The notes under the pieces: model-generated
Databases searched by the model: none
What the model saw: the letters and a program-made list of their open reading frames with translations, nothing else
What the model was told of the DNA's origin: nothing
Shown: one piece after another, positions 1-30,616 of the stretch
How positions within the stretch are numbered: the stretch's first letter is position 1
Layout of the letters: each line of letters opens with the position of its first letter
Source of the DNA: a virus
IMG/VR virus record: IMGVR_UViG_3300035162_001487
Location: 1-32,365 of that record
Direction: 5' to 3' (one strand)
Length of the DNA: 32,365 nt
Position numbers and translations under genes: made by a program

Positions 1-3000
1 TACAAAAAGCAAATAAAACTGCAGTAGATTTATTAGGTCCTAATCCAACTTCTATAGATATGATTGATGCTGGTATAAGAACTAGAACAACAAGAAGCGC
101 TACTAAAGCTGGAGATATTAAAATAGGTGATATAGTTTTACATAGAGGTAAATCTGCAGACGGTACAGAAAAAATGATTTATGCTAAAGTTACAAACATA
201 CATCCTAAAGGTTCTGAAGGATATAAAGGAACTTGGTCTAAAGAAGGTTGGACTGCAGAAGGCGTTGATACTATAGATAGATTTGCTAATGGAGCTATGG
301 CAATTGAATTTGAAGTTGTTGGAAATTACATGAGTAAGTCTGATGCACAATTAATAAAAGATCAAACTCAAACACCTGAACAAAAAGAAGAAGTACTTAC
401 TGCAGATGAGCTTACAAATCATTCTGGAGGTGCATATGGTGCAGATACATTCTTTGATAGTATAGGTAGGGATTTTAATGTTCTTAATCACAATCATTAT
501 AAATCTCCTAATGATGCTAAAGTTTCTGCTACTCTTAAAAATGCAGGTGTAGAAGCTAAAGTTTTAACTGATAAGCAAATGGATGAAGCTTATAGAGCTT
601 TAGATAAATTAACAGGAAAAACTAATTCTAGAAATAAAATTAACGATTTACTTGCTAGAAATTATTTCCAAGTTAAAAATGCAGATGCAGTATATGCTAT
701 AGCTCCATTAAATGAAAGAGGTACAGATGTAAAAGGTGGTACAAGCTATGCTGTAAACTATGCTAAACGTATGAAGAAACCTATTTATGTATGGGATATA
801 AATACTGAAAGTTGGTTTAAGTGGGCAGGTAAATCTTTTGTATCAACTGAAACTCCTAAGTTAACTAGAAACTTTGCTGGAATTGGTAGTAGAGACATAC
901 AAAACTACAATGTACTTAAAGATGGTAAATGGATACCTAGACCTAGTTATGTTGGTAGTGTAAAAGCTTCAGCAGCTTTTGCAGCAATCACAGAGTTGTA
1001 TGAAAATACTCTTACGTCAAGTCCTGTTCCTGTTAATTCTGTAGAAGTTGGAAGGTTTGTAGGATACAAAGGAAATGTTTATATTGCTTTAATGGAAACA
1101 AATCAAGGTTGGCAAATATATAATCCTAGATTTGAAGGACCAAATTCTAAGTTAAATGTAAAGTTAGAAAATCTTAAACCAATGAAACAAAAAGCTGATT
1201 TGGTATTAGATGATAAGACTAATAGATTATATTTAATTACGCCAGATAAAAATATCATATCTCTTACTACAGGTAAGCTTATGAAGTGGGCTAAGAATAA
1301 TGGTGACAGAATAAGAATACTTTCTTTAGTTGATAAAAAAGAATCTGAAAAACCACCTGTTGAATTAAATGCTGGTCAAACATTTACAGGTCTTACCTTT
1401 AACGAAGGTCAAGCAGATGCTATTAAAAAGATGAAAGAGTTTTTAAACTCAGATGAGCAAGAATTTGTATTAGAAGGTAAAGCTGGTACAGGTAAAACAA
1501 CTGTAATGAAAGAAGTATTACTTGCTTATCAAAACTCTAAAGAAAATAGAAAGAAAAAGATACTTATAGGAGCTTTAAGCTGGCAAGCTACTAATGTGCT
1601 TGATAGTACACTAAAAGGTAAGCCAAAATTAATATATGAAAAAAATTCTCTTGCTGGAATGCTTGATCAAAAAATGGATGAGATAACCCATAAAATGACT
1701 AAAGCTAAATATTCTACAGAAGGTGGTAAAGTTGGTTCAGCAAATTTAGTTATTATAGATGAGGCTTCTATGGTAAATGAACAACACCTGGAGATATTAC
1801 GAGATCAAGCTCTTAAAATTGGTGAGGATATAAAAATTATATATTTGGGTGATAGAGGTCAGCTGCCTCCTATTAGAGAATTTAAGTCAAATGAAAATTC
1901 ACCTGTATTTAAAGTAGAGAATAGAGCAGAATTATTAGAAAGAGTTAGACAAGGAGAGGAGTCACCTATACTTCCGTATGCAGATTTATATTGGAACAAT
2001 GCAGATAATGAAAATCCTGTAGCAGATCCTGCAAACGGTAATAGAAGCAGTGTAACTCAACAAGATGGTCAGTTATTATTTGTAGATGGTTCTTCAGCAA
2101 TTGATATAACAATTCAAGAGTATAAGAAAGCAATTGAGTCTGAAAATTATGATTTAATAAAATATGTTACTTATACTAATGTAAGAAGATTTAGAGTAAA
2201 TAAAGAAATACATCAGGCAATTTTTGGTGAGGATGCTCATTTTTACACACCAACAACTCCAGTAAGGTTTAATGCACCTTATGATGCTTTAGAGAACAAA
2301 GACGAAATTAGCTTTATAAATTCTGATCAAGCTGTGGTTAATAAAATTATAGAACAAGGAGAAGACGAATACGGGATTGCATTTGTAAAATTAGAAATCC
2401 TTACTCCTTTAAGTTCAAAACCTGTTACTATAACAACTGTAGATTACACAAAAGAAGCTCTTAAAGATAAGCTGGTAGATAATGCATATAACATGCGACT
2501 TACTAAACTAAATGCTAGATATAACAGAATAAAAAATGATCTTAAGTCTAGTAGAGCACAAGTAAAGGCTGCGTTAAATGAGTATTTAGACTATAAAAAG
2601 AGATATGCTCCTATTAGTCAGGATTATGCTGTTACATCTCATAAGTCTCAAGGCTCTACTTATAATACTGTTATTGTAGACGAGGTAGACATTTATAATG
2701 TGAAAGCTTTGACTCCAAAAGTAAGATCTAATTCTATGTATACTGGTATAACTAGAGCTAAAAATAATGTTCTGATTGTATCTAATAGAACTACACCTTA
2801 CCAAGGTAAAATTACTTTACTAGAAGATGCTGCAGTGCAGATTAATCAAAGTACTGGTGTAGATACAAAGCTTGCTAAATTTTATGAGTCTTTGACACCA
2901 AGTCAAATTGAAAAATTAGGTGTAGATTCTGCACAAGCTTTACAAGAAAAATATGATAATCTTGCTTTTGCTGATACAGAAAATAGTTATACAATAGAAG

Positions 3001-3038
3001 ACTTTATTCTAGATCAAACTGAAAAATGTAAATTATAA
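1..3038 (+). CDS. Giant multidomain protein, C-terminal part: ASCH/PUA-like, SLOG-like and PIF1/RecD2-type SF1 helicase (5'-partial)
   Basis: The frame is open to the left edge (first whole codon at 3), so the first in-frame ATG at 60 is probably internal and the gene is N-terminally cut by the window. Counting from that Met: residues about 25-105 look like an ASCH/PUA-type domain (VGDI...WSKEGW pattern). Residues about 115-285 look like a SLOG/DprA-type nucleotide-binding domain (GGAYGAD at about 122, FAGIGSR at about 271). Residues about 440-920 are an SF1B helicase of the PIF1/RecD2/Dda kind: Walker A EGKAGTGKTT at about 472, Walker B VIIDEAS at about 565, LGDRGQLPP motif III, SHKSQGSTYNTV motif V and YTGITRAKN motif VI. 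Such helicases unwind DNA 5'-3'. Fusion into a giant late-strand protein suggests it is packaged or ejected with the genome, or is a polyprotein. The helicase call is firm; the two upstream domains are moderate. Confidence 0.85.
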   Translation, partial: QKANKTAVDLLGPNPTSIDMIDAGIRTRTTRSATKAGDIKIGDIVLHRGKSADGTEKMIYAKVTNIHPKGSEGYKGTWSKEGWTAEGVDTIDRFANGAMAIEFEVVGNYMSKSDAQLIKDQTQTPEQKEEVLTADELTNHSGGAYGADTFFDSIGRDFNVLNHNHYKSPNDAKVSATLKNAGVEAKVLTDKQMDEAYRALDKLTGKTNSRNKINDLLARNYFQVKNADAVYAIAPLNERGTDVKGGTSYAVNYAKRMKKPIYVWDINTESWFKWAGKSFVSTETPKLTRNFAGIGSRDIQNYNVLKDGKWIPRPSYVGSVKASAAFAAITELYENTLTSSPVPVNSVEVGRFVGYKGNVYIALMETNQGWQIYNPRFEGPNSKLNVKLENLKPMKQKADLVLDDKTNRLYLITPDKNIISLTTGKLMKWAKNNGDRIRILSLVDKKESEKPPVELNAGQTFTGLTFNEGQADAIKKMKEFLNSDEQEFVLEGKAGTGKTTVMKEVLLAYQNSKENRKKKILIGALSWQATNVLDSTLKGKPKLIYEKNSLAGMLDQKMDEITHKMTKAKYSTEGGKVGSANLVIIDEASMVNEQHLEILRDQALKIGEDIKIIYLGDRGQLPPIREFKSNENSPVFKVENRAELLERVRQGEESPILPYADLYWNNADNENPVADPANGNRSSVTQQDGQLLFVDGSSAIDITIQEYKKAIESENYDLIKYVTYTNVRRFRVNKEIHQAIFGEDAHFYTPTTPVRFNAPYDALENKDEISFINSDQAVVNKIIEQGEDEYGIAFVKLEILTPLSSKPVTITTVDYTKEALKDKLVDNAYNMRLTKLNARYNRIKNDLKSSRAQVKAALNEYLDYKKRYAPISQDYAVTSHKSQGSTYNTVIVDEVDIYNVKALTPKVRSNSMYTGITRAKNNVLIVSNRTTPYQGKITLLEDAAVQINQSTGVDTKLAKFYESLTPSQIEKLGVDSAQALQEKYDNLAFADTENSYTIEDFILDQTEKCKL

Positions 3039-14263: not shown

Positions 14264-15439
14264 TTACTTTACAGTCATCTTCACCACCTTTTGATTCAAC
14301 ATCAGTTTTGAGAATTTGGCTTTGTGACCATTAAGGATCTCTTTAACCATGTAATATCTCAAATCATCAGTAAATGAATCACAGTCAGTAACCAAGGAGA
14401 TAATTCTATCAATCATCTTTTGAGGTACTGAACCTTTGTCAGCTGTTATTGATGCAAAGTTGATAATTCTAGTACTAATTATACTAGAGATATCTGCTCT
14501 GAAATCATCATCTTTACCAATACAACCAGTCAAAGAACCTTTAACATAGTTCCAATCATCATTAGTAAGAATCTGCTCAGGGCTGATAAGCTTATCTAAC
14601 TTGTTATTAATAAACATAGCAAACAATGCAGAAGGCTCTTCTCCAATTGACCCATCACCAATCATATTGATCAGCGGCAACTCATCTTCAAACTTTTGAA
14701 TAGAGCTAATAGAGTTAAAGAAAGTAGTAATACTTCTAGGATTAACCTTCTGTGTTACAATCTCTGGATTCATCAACAAGAAGTTAATACATCTACCATC
14801 AATATTAACTTTCTCTGCCCAACGAGCCCATACATTAGCATCAAACTTTACCTCTGTAGAGATAAATCTAGTTTTCTGAGCATCATCAAGAGAAGTTACT
14901 TGATACTCACCATTATCTGGATTAGTAGTCAAAATAACATGCCAGTTCTTTGGAAGAGACCAAGAAATATATTCTTGTCTGTCCAAGATCTCCATAGTTG
15001 CTTGCATAAATCTGTGATCAGCACGAGTGTAATCATCAAGAACCAAGAAACCACCTTCAGTTCTACCTTGAATCCATTCAGGTGCAGCATGAGCCATACG
15101 CTTTTCTACAACCTTGTAACCTTTCTTCATGGCAGCATCAACTTGAGCTTCCATAATCCAAGTACTTTTACCTTCTTTATTTTGAATCTTAAATTCTTTA
15201 ACAGGAAAACCAACAAGGTCACCTAATTCTTCTATCTGAGATAGATTAATCTTTACAACGTCCATTTCCATCTCTTTACCAAGCTGGACAATAGCGGAAG
15301 TCTTACCAAGGCCCGCATCACCTTCAATATTTATTGCAACAGGTATTTTACCTTCATTTTGAATGTACTGGTTATTAGTAACCATGTGCTTTAAAAAGCC
15401 TTTTAACTCATCAACGTTTAACTGTGTAATTTTACTCAT
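14264..15439 (-). CDS. MoxR-type AAA+ ATPase
   Basis: 391 aa. Walker A GDAGLGKTS (40-48), Walker B FLVLDD (131-136) and a sensor-1-like TTNPDN after a conserved HVIL strand; ELGDLVGFP (71-79) is the segment typical of MoxR/midasin-type ATPases. MoxR ATPases act as chaperones that remodel a partner carrying a von Willebrand A domain. Exactly such a partner is encoded 13 nt upstream (15453-16670), so the two should work together. The target is unknown. The gene is followed by its own terminator. Confidence 0.88.
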   Translation of the reverse strand: MSKITQLNVDELKGFLKHMVTNNQYIQNEGKIPVAINIEGDAGLGKTSAIVQLGKEMEMDVVKINLSQIEELGDLVGFPVKEFKIQNKEGKSTWIMEAQVDAAMKKGYKVVEKRMAHAAPEWIQGRTEGGFLVLDDYTRADHRFMQATMEILDRQEYISWSLPKNWHVILTTNPDNGEYQVTSLDDAQKTRFISTEVKFDANVWARWAEKVNIDGRCINFLLMNPEIVTQKVNPRSITTFFNSISSIQKFEDELPLINMIGDGSIGEEPSALFAMFINNKLDKLISPEQILTNDDWNYVKGSLTGCIGKDDDFRADISSIISTRIINFASITADKGSVPQKMIDRIISLVTDCDSFTDDLRYYMVKEILNGHKAKFSKLMLNQKVVKMTVK

Positions 15440-15452
15440 TTCTTTTTTTAAT

Positions 15453-16670
15453 TTAAAGTTCTAATCTAATTTGTCTTCCTGGTAATTCATCATTAAAGTC
15501 AGATCTCTCCGATAATACCCATAGAACTGGCTTCCTAGGTTTTACATCTGTCCAAGCTTCTCCATCTGTAAAATAGATTAAGCTTGTAAACTCTTTTCTC
15601 TCATTAAATAATTCTAGAACAGGTTCAAATCTTGTACCTCCTCTACCTGCAACTGCTAGTTCAAACTTTCCATCATATTTCTCGACAGATTGCATCCTAG
15701 AATCACACTGTGCAATTGTGATATCAACACCTGCTTTATACAAGTGGTGTATCTCATTAATAAACTCTTTTAATTCATCATCACAAACAGAACCTGAAGT
15801 ATCAATACCTACAAGCATGTTTTGTCTCATCTTTATCTTAAGGCCAGGATTATCAGAGTACCTTTTGTTCTCTTTTCTCCTAACCTTTCTAGTAAAGATC
15901 TTAGTAGATATACCAGTAAATCTTCTGATATATGCTTTCCAATTAAATTTAGGTGGTATAACTTCATCAAGCTTAATAAGACCTGATATCTCACCTGGTA
16001 CAAATCCTCTCTTCTTAAGAGTCTGCTCTTTAGCTTCAGACATAACTCTTTGAATCTGCTTTTCAATAAGCTTCTTCTCAGCTTCAGGCATGTTTTCAAA
16101 CTCTTCCCATTCATGATCAGGAATGTCAATTTCTTTATCTCCACCTTCTCCTCCAATCTTAACACTACATTGGCCTTTTTCCATACCATCAAGAAGTTTA
16201 TCCATATTCTTGTCTCCACAAGAACCATTTTGTTTTTTATCTTCTTGAGCTTGTTTAAGCTTATCATAGTAATATCTACTACCAGCTCTTTTATCTAGAT
16301 TAAGATCTTCATAATCATTTATATCTATACCACCTTTAGGTAACCAATCTTTATCTATATACTGATTGATTTCCATATCCATTGCAATATTAGCCATCTG
16401 ATGATCACTAAACATAGTGAAGGTTGTAAGATGCTGAAAAGCTATGTGCAATAACTCATGCTTCAGTAAACCTAGTCTGTGTTCTTCTGACAAATCTGTC
16501 CAGAACTTCTCATTGATCATCAATTGAAAGTTGATGCCATTTTTACATACACCTGCAGTTGGAAGTTGATCACTCCAACTCTTGTGTAACATTAATAAAA
16601 AGAAACCATAATAGGGTTCCTGTAACATCAAATCTTTTGATGTTTTACTTAGCGAATCTTGTCTATTCAT
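15453..16670 (-). CDS. VWA-domain protein with putative metallopeptidase domain (DUF2201-like)
   Basis: 405 aa. The N-terminal part carries HELLHIAFQH (71-80), an HExxH zinc-metallopeptidase signature. A Lys/Glu-rich linker covers ~130-240. The C-terminal part is a VWA-like domain with MIDAS motif DTSGS (290-294) and a downstream AGRGGTRF segment supplying further metal contacts. This two-domain layout is that of DUF2201 proteins, which sit beside MoxR ATPases in bacteria and some phages. Its start overlaps the upstream gene by 4 nt and the ATPase follows 13 nt later. Whether the HExxH is proteolytically active cannot be told here. Confidence 0.87.
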   Translation of the reverse strand: MNRQDSLSKTSKDLMLQEPYYGFFLLMLHKSWSDQLPTAGVCKNGINFQLMINEKFWTDLSEEHRLGLLKHELLHIAFQHLTTFTMFSDHQMANIAMDMEINQYIDKDWLPKGGIDINDYEDLNLDKRAGSRYYYDKLKQAQEDKKQNGSCGDKNMDKLLDGMEKGQCSVKIGGEGGDKEIDIPDHEWEEFENMPEAEKKLIEKQIQRVMSEAKEQTLKKRGFVPGEISGLIKLDEVIPPKFNWKAYIRRFTGISTKIFTRKVRRKENKRYSDNPGLKIKMRQNMLVGIDTSGSVCDDELKEFINEIHHLYKAGVDITIAQCDSRMQSVEKYDGKFELAVAGRGGTRFEPVLELFNERKEFTSLIYFTDGEAWTDVKPRKPVLWVLSERSDFNDELPGRQIRLEL

Positions 16671-17199: not shown

Positions 17200-17336
17200 T
17201 CTATGCACATATCATCCCACACTTCTAACAGATTCTCAAGAACTTTAATGTGTTCTTTCCAATTATCTCCATACTGTTCATTCTCAGTTAAGAAATTTAT
17301 TACTTCTTCAATTTTAACTTTATCTTGTTTACTCAT
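17196..17336 (-). CDS. 46-aa acidic microprotein
   Basis: Starts MSKQDKVKIEEVINFLTENE and is highly charged and helical, without cysteine pairs or membrane segments. The ATG overlaps the TGA of the GIY-YIG gene (ATGA) and its TGA overlaps the next ATG in the same way. The tight coupling supports real translation. It could be a small regulatory or docking peptide; no function can be assigned. Confidence 0.55.
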   Translation of the reverse strand: MSKQDKVKIEEVINFLTENEQYGDNWKEHIKVLENLLEVWDDMCIE

Positions 17337-17821
17337 ATTTTTCCTTTATAAAATCTTCCTAATATATTTCCATTCAGATACCAATCTCTCTCAAGAACCT
17401 CATACTTAAATTGGTATTTTGTTTCTTGATAAGTTAGTTCTGCTTTTGTAAAGCATATCTTAAGAATAGTTCTGTGTATCATTTTACCATCTTTGTATGC
17501 TTGTTTCAGTTGTTTATTACTACTGAAGTAATTTTCATAGTCTAGTTTAGTGACCATCTCATACTTCTTAGTACGTTTATCTGTTACAGCAGCTAAAGCT
17601 TTCTTTCCAAATTTCTTTTTTCTTCTGCTATAAAAGTTTTTCTTTCCTATGTAAGAATAATATTGACCATCATCATCTTTATAATTCATTTTGTATACAA
17701 AACCTACAGCACCTTCAGGTATCATAGATTTTTTAAATGGCTCGCTCATTTGCTCCTCATGTGGCAATATAAACCAAGGATACATTTCATCTTTTATTTT
17801 ACTTTTTAATGTTCTTTTCAT
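17333..17821 (-). CDS. GIY-YIG-type nuclease (SegE-like)
   Basis: 162 aa. GFVYKMN followed by YSYIGKKNFYSRR is the GIY...YIG signature as it appears in phage SegE-like proteins, with the conserved Arg after the second motif. The body is Lys-rich, as expected for DNA binding; the C-terminal helix with YQFKYEVLERDWYL could supply the metal-binding Glu. Such enzymes are free-standing homing nucleases or degrade/repair DNA. It overlaps both neighbours by 4 nt inside the replication operon rather than sitting alone, which argues that it has been domesticated. Confidence 0.7.
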   Translation of the reverse strand: MKRTLKSKIKDEMYPWFILPHEEQMSEPFKKSMIPEGAVGFVYKMNYKDDDGQYYSYIGKKNFYSRRKKKFGKKALAAVTDKRTKKYEMVTKLDYENYFSSNKQLKQAYKDGKMIHRTILKICFTKAELTYQETKYQFKYEVLERDWYLNGNILGRFYKGKI

Positions 17822-26801: not shown

Positions 26802-26814
26802 AATTTAATTTTAG

Positions 26815-26888
26815 TACACCCATTAGGAGTCGAACCTAAAACCACCTCCTTAGAAGGGAGGTGCTCTATCCAATTGAGCTATGGGTGC
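26815..26888 (-). tRNA. tRNA-Arg (anticodon UCU, reads AGA/AGG)
   Basis: 74 nt. Acceptor arm GCACCCA/TGGGTGT (7 bp with one G-U at the first pair), D arm GCTC/GAGC, anticodon stem CCTCC/GGAGG with loop CTTCTAA (anticodon TCT, complement of 26852-26854), T arm TTAGG/CCTAA with loop TTCGACT, discriminator A. No encoded CCA. AGA is the main Arg codon in the neighbouring genes, so the phage supplies its own supply of a codon that may be rarer in the host. Confidence 0.95.
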
Positions 26889-27784: not shown

Positions 27785-28117
27785 TTAAATTGAGTGTGTT
27801 AGATCTGCATCTTCTGCATAAACATCTATTTCTTTTTTCTTTTTAAATGCTTCTTTTAATCCAATTTTAGCGTCCATAACTCTTTCTACAGTCATAGTCA
27901 TGTCATCTGGAATTAAAAGAAATCTTTCTAAAGAGTAATACTCATATGGAGCTGAAGCTGCAGTAAGTTCTATTTCTTCAAAAGCAACACCAAGCTTACC
28001 TTTTTGTAAACTCATTTCTACTACTTCAGTAATAGTATATACTACACCTTCTTCTATCCATTCATAATCAGAGATATGCTCTGGCTTATTACTACTATCA
28101 ATGCAAATTGCTTTCAT
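27785..28117 (-). CDS. Hypothetical protein (110 aa) of a family common in Bacteroidota phages
   Basis: Starts MKAICIDSSNKPEHISDYEW and contains WIEEGVVYTITEVVEMSLQ and PYEYYSLERFLL, a beta-rich core I have the impression of seeing often in Bacteroidota phages and prophages (established by recall, not searched). It overlaps the ClpS-like gene by 20 nt. Biochemical role unknown. Confidence 0.68.
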   Translation of the reverse strand: MKAICIDSSNKPEHISDYEWIEEGVVYTITEVVEMSLQKGKLGVAFEEIELTAASAPYEYYSLERFLLIPDDMTMTVERVMDAKIGLKEAFKKKKEIDVYAEDADLTHSI

Positions 28118-28352
28118 ATGCTTCTAAACTTACTCCCACCTTTACGTGATCCAAGGTTTCTAATATTTCATACATTTCCTTAAAAGGCCCTGATGCAATA
28201 TCTATCTGACCTCTATTGTGTGCTAAAAGAGCACATTGTTCTGCTTGAATAGGTGTGTGACCACATATTTTAATTAAGCATGCTGTGACATACTCAAAAC
28301 TGAGCTTGTCATCATTATACAAAGTAATCTTATGTGTTTTAGATTCACCCAT
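28098..28352 (-). CDS. ClpS-like N-degron adaptor
   Basis: 84 aa, about the length of the ClpS core domain. ITLYNDDKLSFEYV (9-22) aligns with the ClpS strand 'YNDDYTPMEFV': N13, D14, D15 match E. coli N34, D35, D36. H45 in LLAHNRGQ matches H66, at exactly the same spacing (30 residues from the second Asp). These residues bind the alpha-amino group of N-degron substrates. The gate position Met40 is Phe19 here, and Thr38 is Leu17, so substrate preference may differ. ClpS hands proteins to ClpAP for degradation; a phage copy could redirect the host protease. The N-terminal extension that E. coli ClpS uses to block or engage ClpA is nearly absent. Confidence 0.85.
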   Translation of the reverse strand: MGESKTHKITLYNDDKLSFEYVTACLIKICGHTPIQAEQCALLAHNRGQIDIASGPFKEMYEILETLDHVKVGVSLEAYESNLH

Positions 28353-28389
28353 ACAATAATATACTAATTTTTGGGCAGATAATGGCTAT

Positions 28390-29484
28390 CTAACCCAGGT
28401 TAACATTATAATCCTTCCATTCTATTTTGGAAGCATCTAGACCTTCTAAGGCAGTCTTTACCCATTTTTCATCTATAGTATGCTTATAGCATAATATATG
28501 TATTATAGCTTTTTCATCTGGATTAAGCCTCAGTAATCTTCCTATTCTCTGAGCAGACTTTCTTTCATTGCCATATGCATGCATAATAATTCCTTGTTTT
28601 AACTCTGGAATATTTACACCTTCATTTAATTGCATTACAGAAGATAGTTTATTTATCTTACCTTCTTTAAACAGTTCAAGATTTGCTTCTGAGTCTATAT
28701 TATTACTATGATAACTATACTCGCACAATCTATCAGCCTGTTCTTGAGTATTAGCAAACATTATGCATTTATCTTTAATACTAGTAAATAGTAATCTAGC
28801 ATACTGCTCTTTGCTTGGATACTCTTTCATTGCTTTCATTCTCATTATGCGTAATATATGCATACTACCTGCGCCACTGTCAATTCTATTGCACCAGTAA
28901 CCATAATTCTTCTGCTCTGAAGTCTTAAAACTTTTATTCTTCATTTCTACTAAATAATTATTCTTTGTGCTTAACTCAAGCTCATGTACAATTATCTGAT
29001 AATCATTTAGAATATTATTGTCTACAGCACTATCAGTAACAAATTCATATATTATTGGACAGAATTCATCTACCAACCTACCTTTCTCAGACTTGTGATA
29101 CTTAGGTGGTGTACCCGTAAGACCTAGAATCTTGCCATTATACTCATTTAGAAATTCTCTATGAGAATCTAACAAGCTATGACATTCATCTAGATACACT
29201 ATATCAAAGTCTTTTGGATTTTGCTTATTTAAGCTTAAGTATGTTGTAAACGTAACTCTTGCTAACAGCTTTTCCTTATCAAATTTTCTTGCTTCTGCTC
29301 TCCAACTATCAAAAATTGATAGTTTTGGTGCAACTACAAGTATCTCTAACATAGGAGAATAATTACTCTCTAAATGATTTAGTGCTACAAGTGTCTTACC
29401 GACACCTGTAGCTAATCCTAAACCACATCTGTTAATACCTATAGTTCTTTTGAGAGCTTCAGCTTGTACTGTATCTCTATCCAT
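28390..29484 (-). CDS. SF2 DNA helicase/translocase (DEAD/SNF2-like)
   Basis: 364 aa. Q-motif-like start (MDRDTVQAEAL), Walker A TGVGKT (26-31), VAPKLSIFDSWRAE (motif Ia), DECH (99-102), LTGTPP (122-127, motif III), and a C-terminal RecA domain with VMQLNEGVNIP and QRIGRLLR (motif VI). Compact, with little outside the two RecA lobes. Such enzymes remodel DNA or DNA-bound complexes; many crAss-like phages have an SF2/SNF2 helicase in this module. Ends with TAG, 38 nt before ClpS-like. Confidence 0.9.
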   Translation of the reverse strand: MDRDTVQAEALKRTIGINRCGLGLATGVGKTLVALNHLESNYSPMLEILVVAPKLSIFDSWRAEARKFDKEKLLARVTFTTYLSLNKQNPKDFDIVYLDECHSLLDSHREFLNEYNGKILGLTGTPPKYHKSEKGRLVDEFCPIIYEFVTDSAVDNNILNDYQIIVHELELSTKNNYLVEMKNKSFKTSEQKNYGYWCNRIDSGAGSMHILRIMRMKAMKEYPSKEQYARLLFTSIKDKCIMFANTQEQADRLCEYSYHSNNIDSEANLELFKEGKINKLSSVMQLNEGVNIPELKQGIIMHAYGNERKSAQRIGRLLRLNPDEKAIIHILCYKHTIDEKWVKTALEGLDASKIEWKDYNVNLG

Positions 29485-30211: not shown

Positions 30212-30616
30212 TCATTTTAAATAATTCATAATTCTTGCTTCTTTTGGATTACCGTGAATCCAATTATGACAATTCCTACAAACAGGGATCCATGTACTTT
30301 GTATTAAATAATACACATCACGATCACTACCTGCATAGGTGTGATGAATATCAGTAGCACTATTGCTACAACCATCTACTTTAACCTTACATAGGGAATT
30401 GTCAGTAAGATATCTTTCTCTTAATTTAAGATACTCAGCATCTTTCTTCTTTCTTTTAGAAGATACACGAGGGATAGACACGTTTGGTTTCTGTGGCTTG
30501 TTAGTACTGCTTTTGTGGCAACTCCAGCAATATTTACAATATCTATTACCCTCATGATTCTTCCATATAACAGTTATCTTTTGACAACCATCACATTCTT
30601 TTAGTTTTGCTTTCAT
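30212..30616 (-). CDS. HNH endonuclease with N-terminal zinc ribbon
   Basis: 134 aa. C8-x2-C11 and C27-x2-C30 (with C33) form a likely zinc ribbon; a Lys-rich linker follows. C76...C83, ATDIHH (87-92) and PVCRNCHNWIH (111-121, C113, C116, H117, H121) make the zinc-structured HNH motif. A homing, packaging or defence nuclease is possible; proximity to the SF2 helicase and ParB-like gene suggests a functional set. Confidence 0.88.
   Translation of the reverse strand: MKAKLKECDGCQKITVIWKNHEGNRYCKYCWSCHKSSTNKPQKPNVSIPRVSSKRKKKDAEYLKLRERYLTDNSLCKVKVDGCSNSATDIHHTYAGSDRDVYYLIQSTWIPVCRNCHNWIHGNPKEARIMNYLK

Follow-up and report, generated by a model that had tools for sequence, protein, structure and literature searches.

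ClpS is the adaptor that delivers N-degrons to the ClpA/ClpC-ClpP proteases. In E. coli ClpS, residues 2-26 constitute the N-terminal extension (NTE). During delivery, this extension threads into the pore of ClpA, and blocking its entry is inhibitory (PMC9663308). The folded core contributes Val65 to the specificity pocket and the helix-3 residues E79, E82 and K84 to the contact with ClpA (PMC12493166). Leptospira interrogans ClpS1, which has a Val at the position of K84, nevertheless binds ClpA at 0.44 uM; it keeps a 22-residue N-domain and inhibits the ClpA ATPase in vitro (PMC12493166). A ClpS domain is also encoded by jumbo phages of other lineages than the one analyzed here (AMM43882.1), and these proteins were proposed to be delivering adaptors that recruit host ClpAP (Iyer et al. 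2021, PMC7824862); phage ClpS as such is, therefore, not new. The phage ClpS proteins in databases (A0A8D9CC24, Agrobacterium phage Atu_ph07, Klebsiella phage RaK2) likewise belong to other lineages, and the whole proteins have at least 96 aa compared to 84 aa in the protein described here. For the role of ClpS in phages, recruitment of host ClpAP is the only published proposal that we found. In the literature searched, in which subscription journals are thinly covered, we found neither an NTE-less ClpS clade in crAss-like phages nor any work joining ClpS with these phages.

Here, we analyzed a virus record of 32,365 bases (the window), in which an 84-aa ClpS protein is encoded on the minus strand between its ATG at position 28352 and the end of its stop codon at position 28098. 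The locus comprises the following features:

28390-29484, minus strand: helicase (ResIII/Helicase_C), the upstream neighbour, conserved beside ClpS (Pfam, synteny)
28355-28367, minus strand: AT-rich element TTAGTATATTATT shortly before the start codon of ClpS (upstream comparison)
28098-28352, minus strand: ClpS-domain protein of 84 aa (PF02617, AlphaFold2 model, PDB fold matches, 16 orthologues)
28098-28117, minus strand: 20-base overlap between the 3' end of ClpS and the start of the next gene (ORF coordinates, sequence)
27785-28117, minus strand: 110-aa protein, the downstream neighbour, conserved beside ClpS in the clade described below (synteny)

The first-pass annotation of this DNA had proposed a phage-encoded ClpS-like protein and had suggested a profile search and a structure prediction as checks. 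Both support the assignment. The protein matches PF02617 with 45.9 bits (E=5e-12), i.e. twice the Pfam cut-off of 23, while it misses the NCBIfam equivalog cut-off for ClpS (best score 20.8 bits versus 117). An AlphaFold2 model with 12 phage sequences as input has a mean pLDDT of 86.8, and all 38 matches to this model in the PDB at E<=1e-3 are ClpS. Among them, M. smegmatis ClpS (9b1p_A) superposes with a TM score of 0.85 and an rmsd of 0.9 A over 75 columns, and E. coli ClpS is matched with a Foldseek E-value of about 1e-6 at 19% identity. The protein is thus a genuine ClpS-domain protein with the ClpS core fold. The phage origin of the gene was also borne out. It lies in a virus record and has 16 orthologues in viral contigs, found by protein search at 40-86% identity.

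ClpS is common in viral contigs: a profile search identified at least 523 ClpS-encoding stretches, some of which could be misclassified host sequence. Only three uncultured phages of 634-642 kb gave good matches in an annotated phage collection. Among the matches listed, which were chosen by similarity to the phage proteins, the closest cellular relatives are all from Bacteroidota and mostly from Flavobacteriia, and 195 of 198 sampled Bacteroidota genomes encode ClpS. Descent from a Bacteroidota-type ClpS is the best explanation for the origin of the window protein. The ClpS proteins of Flavobacterium and Cellulophaga share with it the fold, the N34/D35/D36/H66 set (E. coli numbering), a Phe at the gate and the CxHTxxQAEQC helix; they differ in having approximately 19 NTE residues, Asn at T38, Val/Ile at V65 and an invariant Pro83, for which the window protein has 5 residues, Leu, Ala and Glu, respectively.

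The gene order helicase, ClpS, 110-aa gene and then, at a distance, UDG and DnaB is kept in the clade loci examined, and the same helicase-ClpS neighbourhood is found in several related phages with a long NTE (long-form phages). This marks ClpS as an inherited, syntenic core gene of the phage lineage. The 110-aa gene has no Pfam match over the cut-off and is not supported as an obligate partner of ClpS, because some long-form phages carry the two genes apart from each other. In two loci (L158 and L165), the helicase match upstream of ClpS falls into two pieces approximately 2 kb apart, resembling an insertion near the 3' end. TTAGTATATTATT occurs once in the window and is conserved among near relatives, in which the sequence farther upstream is variable; it could possibly function as a promoter or translation signal.

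The order of the helicase, DnaB and Sak4-like genes in the window matches that in crAss001, and a 1153-aa ORF resembles crAss proteins annotated as an RNA-polymerase subunit. Based on the replication module and this RNA-polymerase-region protein, the carrying lineage probably belongs to the crAss-like phages of Bacteroidota; among the genes identified in the 32-kb window, there is no Crassvirales capsid, portal or terminase gene. The cultured Crassvirales crAss001 and phi14:2 share this replication module and differ in having no ClpS in the records searched. In total, ClpS was absent from all five isolate or crAss records searched, i.e. the whole records of phi14:2, crAss001, cr126_1 and cr106_1 (Crassvirales) and of Flavobacterium phage FpV4. 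In BFVD, small proteins of the gut crAss phages cr10_1, cr1_1, cr50_1 and cr126_1 are weakly similar in fold to the window model; some are named bL12 C-terminal-domain-like, and they may be either divergent ClpS or L7/L12-fold proteins. Each of 20 related viral records, which are possibly incomplete, contains exactly one ClpS. Among 20-21 such records, also possibly incomplete, none encodes a ClpP, Clp_N (ClpA/C N-domain) or Leu_Phe_trans domain, which argues against a phage-encoded Clp protease or Leu/Phe-transferase as a partner; therefore, ClpS presumably acts on the host machinery.

Numbering the window protein from N13, which corresponds to E. coli N34, places the functionally relevant residues as follows:

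28338-28352, minus strand: residues 1-5, all that is left of the NTE (numbering from N13 = E. coli N34)
28308-28316, minus strand: N13-D14-D15 (E. coli N34-D35-D36), amino-group binding (sequence)
28296-28304, minus strand: L17-S18-F19 (E. coli T38-P39-M40), pocket gate (sequence comparison)
28218-28223, minus strand: A44-H45 (E. coli V65-H66), amino-group-binding His preceded by an enlarged pocket position (sequence comparison)
28164-28181, minus strand: helix-3 stretch K58-I63, with K, Y and I as the equivalents of the ClpA-contacting E79, E82 and K84 (ungapped mapping from N34)

Judged from its sequence, the main anomaly of the window ClpS is the short NTE rather than the gate. The NTE has 5 residues compared to a host median of 19, with which a phylum-wide sample agrees (L190, L192, L197, L200 and L202 were left out because of a wrong anchor motif), and about 18-25 residues in most long-form sister phages. 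There is no in-frame ATG, GTG or TTG upstream of the ClpS start, the open frame would allow at most 16 NTE residues with any start codon, and the conserved TTAGTATATTATT occupies the place of a longer extension. A misannotated start is thus rejected for the window, and the short N-terminal extension described in the first-pass annotation stands. The 5-residue NTE is common to a clade of 37 distinct proteins from uncultured phages, from which the long-form loci L109-L111, L144 and L145 were kept out and to which all clade counts refer. In a tree of NTE-trimmed cores, these short-NTE proteins are monophyletic with a support of 99/92. Given the shared, inherited helicase-ClpS locus, the NTE would most simply have been lost in a single event in the sublineage of the window.

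N13, D14, D15 and H45, noted at the outset as the amino-group-binding set, have the spacing of N34, D35, D36 and H66 in E. coli ClpS, and the triad N34, D36 and H66 is intact. In the clade, N34 is retained in 37/37, D36 in 33/37 and H66 in 36/37 of the proteins; D36 is replaced by Ser or Asn in some members, and N-degron binding would be weakened in those without D36 or H66. At two loci, L011:1505-1762 and L012:7565-7822, the amino-group-binding His66 of ClpS is replaced by Asp, which is also the case in Leptospira ClpS1. The claim of altered gate residues was correct only relative to E. coli, i.e. Phe for Met40 and Leu for Thr38, because Phe is the Bacteroidota norm and only the Leu is unusual. 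Specifically, the Met40 position is Phe and the Thr38 position Asn in all 76 distinct host and all 33 distinct long-form phage proteins. This invariance rules out the gate Phe as a phage innovation and indicates that it is ancestral and inherited in the window. In the clade, the gate is Tyr in 24 and Phe in 13 proteins, and Asn, His (9/37) or Leu (8/37) occupies the Thr38 position; the Leu, present in the window ClpS, is a derived state. The Val65 position is Ala or Thr in 36 of the 37 clade proteins, whereas all hosts and, with a single exception, all long-form phages have Val or Ile there. Parts of the clade resemble Leptospira ClpS1 (PMC12493166) in having a gate Tyr, His at T38 and an aliphatic residue at K84, and L011 shares its Asp for H66.

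Compared to E. coli ClpS, the N-recognin adaptor of ClpAP, the window protein thus shares the fold and the amino-group triad and differs by lacking the 25-residue NTE, by having Phe for Met40, Leu for Thr38 and Ala for both Met62 and Val65, and by having K58, Y61 and I63 at the contact positions 79, 82 and 84. In the E. coli reference sequence used here, K17, R19 and P24-S26 were confirmed against PMC9663308; the helix-3 numbering is the ungapped one, and an alignment with M. smegmatis ClpS gives the same assignment. In the clade, position 79 is mostly Leu, Met or Asp, position 82 Phe, Tyr, Leu or Ile, and position 84 Ile, Leu or Met, making the ClpA-binding face on helix 3 more hydrophobic. 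Hosts also depart from E. coli at positions 82 and 84; Lys is the commonest residue at position 82 in both hosts and long-form phages, and position 84 is aliphatic already in the NTE-bearing long-form phages, so that this change is not clade-specific. For this reason, and because Leptospira ClpS1 binds ClpA, the helix-3 changes need not mean a loss of docking.

How might such a ClpS function? Because the triad is kept, the delivery tail is lost and no phage protease was found, our preferred, albeit tentative, interpretation is that the window ClpS would be a non-delivering N-degron binder that competes with host ClpS and shields proteins from degradation. In this scenario, the ability to bind proteins that begin with a bulky hydrophobic residue would be preserved. 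With 5 residues compared to 25 in E. coli, its NTE is not long enough for the unfoldase pore, and bound proteins would not be handed over. By occupying N-degrons, and perhaps also the unfoldase N-domain, the phage ClpS would, in the course of infection, shield the proteins that bear them from host ClpS-ClpA(C)P. The more far-reaching proposal that the crAss-like clade evolved a dedicated N-degron decoy, which is tail-less, has an altered unfoldase face and blocks the host N-degron pathway, is one that we advance with greater reserve. Alternatively, the window ClpS could be a working adaptor with a different substrate range, which would hand certain proteins of the host or the phage over to host ClpA(C)P, its core docking on the unfoldase and its short N-terminus sufficing. 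This possibility is one that we take seriously without preferring it; delivery with changed specificity is nearly as likely as non-delivery, because the dependence on the NTE is known from E. coli ClpA only and the Bacteroidota ClpA/C may differ. The retained triad and the changes at T38, M40 and V65 fit such an adaptor, which is also the published inference for jumbo-phage ClpS (Iyer et al. 2021, PMC7824862). Moreover, the ClpS that sister phages encode at this locus has a complete NTE and, therefore, the ancestral role was probably delivery. On the other hand, the remaining NTE does not have the length that allows the E. coli NTE to span the pore, and the contact positions 79 and 82 on helix 3 are changed. 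Overall, the anatomy of this ClpS would suit blocking or competition somewhat better than steering of the host protease.

We consider it unlikely that the fold has been repurposed, such that helix 3 and the conserved C-terminal tail bind some other protein of the phage or the host and the binding of N-degrons is incidental or lost. The clade does have its own features, i.e. a conserved helix-3 pattern, E83 for the host P83, a THK start motif and an extra C-terminal tail, and the Asp for H66 in L011/L012 and the Ser or Asn for D36 in some members point in the same direction. However, the near-complete conservation of N34 and H66 would be unexpected for an unused pocket and, because the sequence encoding the tail in the window also belongs to the next gene, its conservation may partly reflect constraint on that gene. 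That the gene was captured from a host and is now a decaying or neutral remnant is very improbable. The median pairwise dN/dS of ClpS is 0.37 in the clade and 0.40 in long-form phages, compared to 0.11 in hosts and, relative to the window, ClpS has a value of 0.42, which exceeds those of the helicase, DnaB and UDG (0.12-0.19) as decay would predict. Nevertheless, these values are below 1 and similar to those of two other, adjacent small genes (0.32-0.46), and all clade loci examined retain an open frame in conserved synteny. Clade ClpS is thus under purifying selection, constrained yet fast-evolving. The pattern in the clade suggests that the bacterial N-degron pathway matters during infection and, with the delivery element lost in one clade and kept by its sisters at the same locus, provides a natural experiment in which the functions of adaptor and decoy can be tested against each other.

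The window contains several other features. A 992-aa protein encoded on the plus strand (60-3038) has a DprA-like region joined to a Dda/RecD-like helicase. On the minus strand, adjacent genes for an AAA ATPase and a metallopeptidase-VWA protein (DUF2201) form a MoxR/VWA-like pair (14264-16670), and a SegE-type GIY-YIG endonuclease (17333-17821), an HNH-endonuclease-like protein (30212-30616) and a tRNA-Arg (TCT) gene (26814-26888) are also encoded on this strand.
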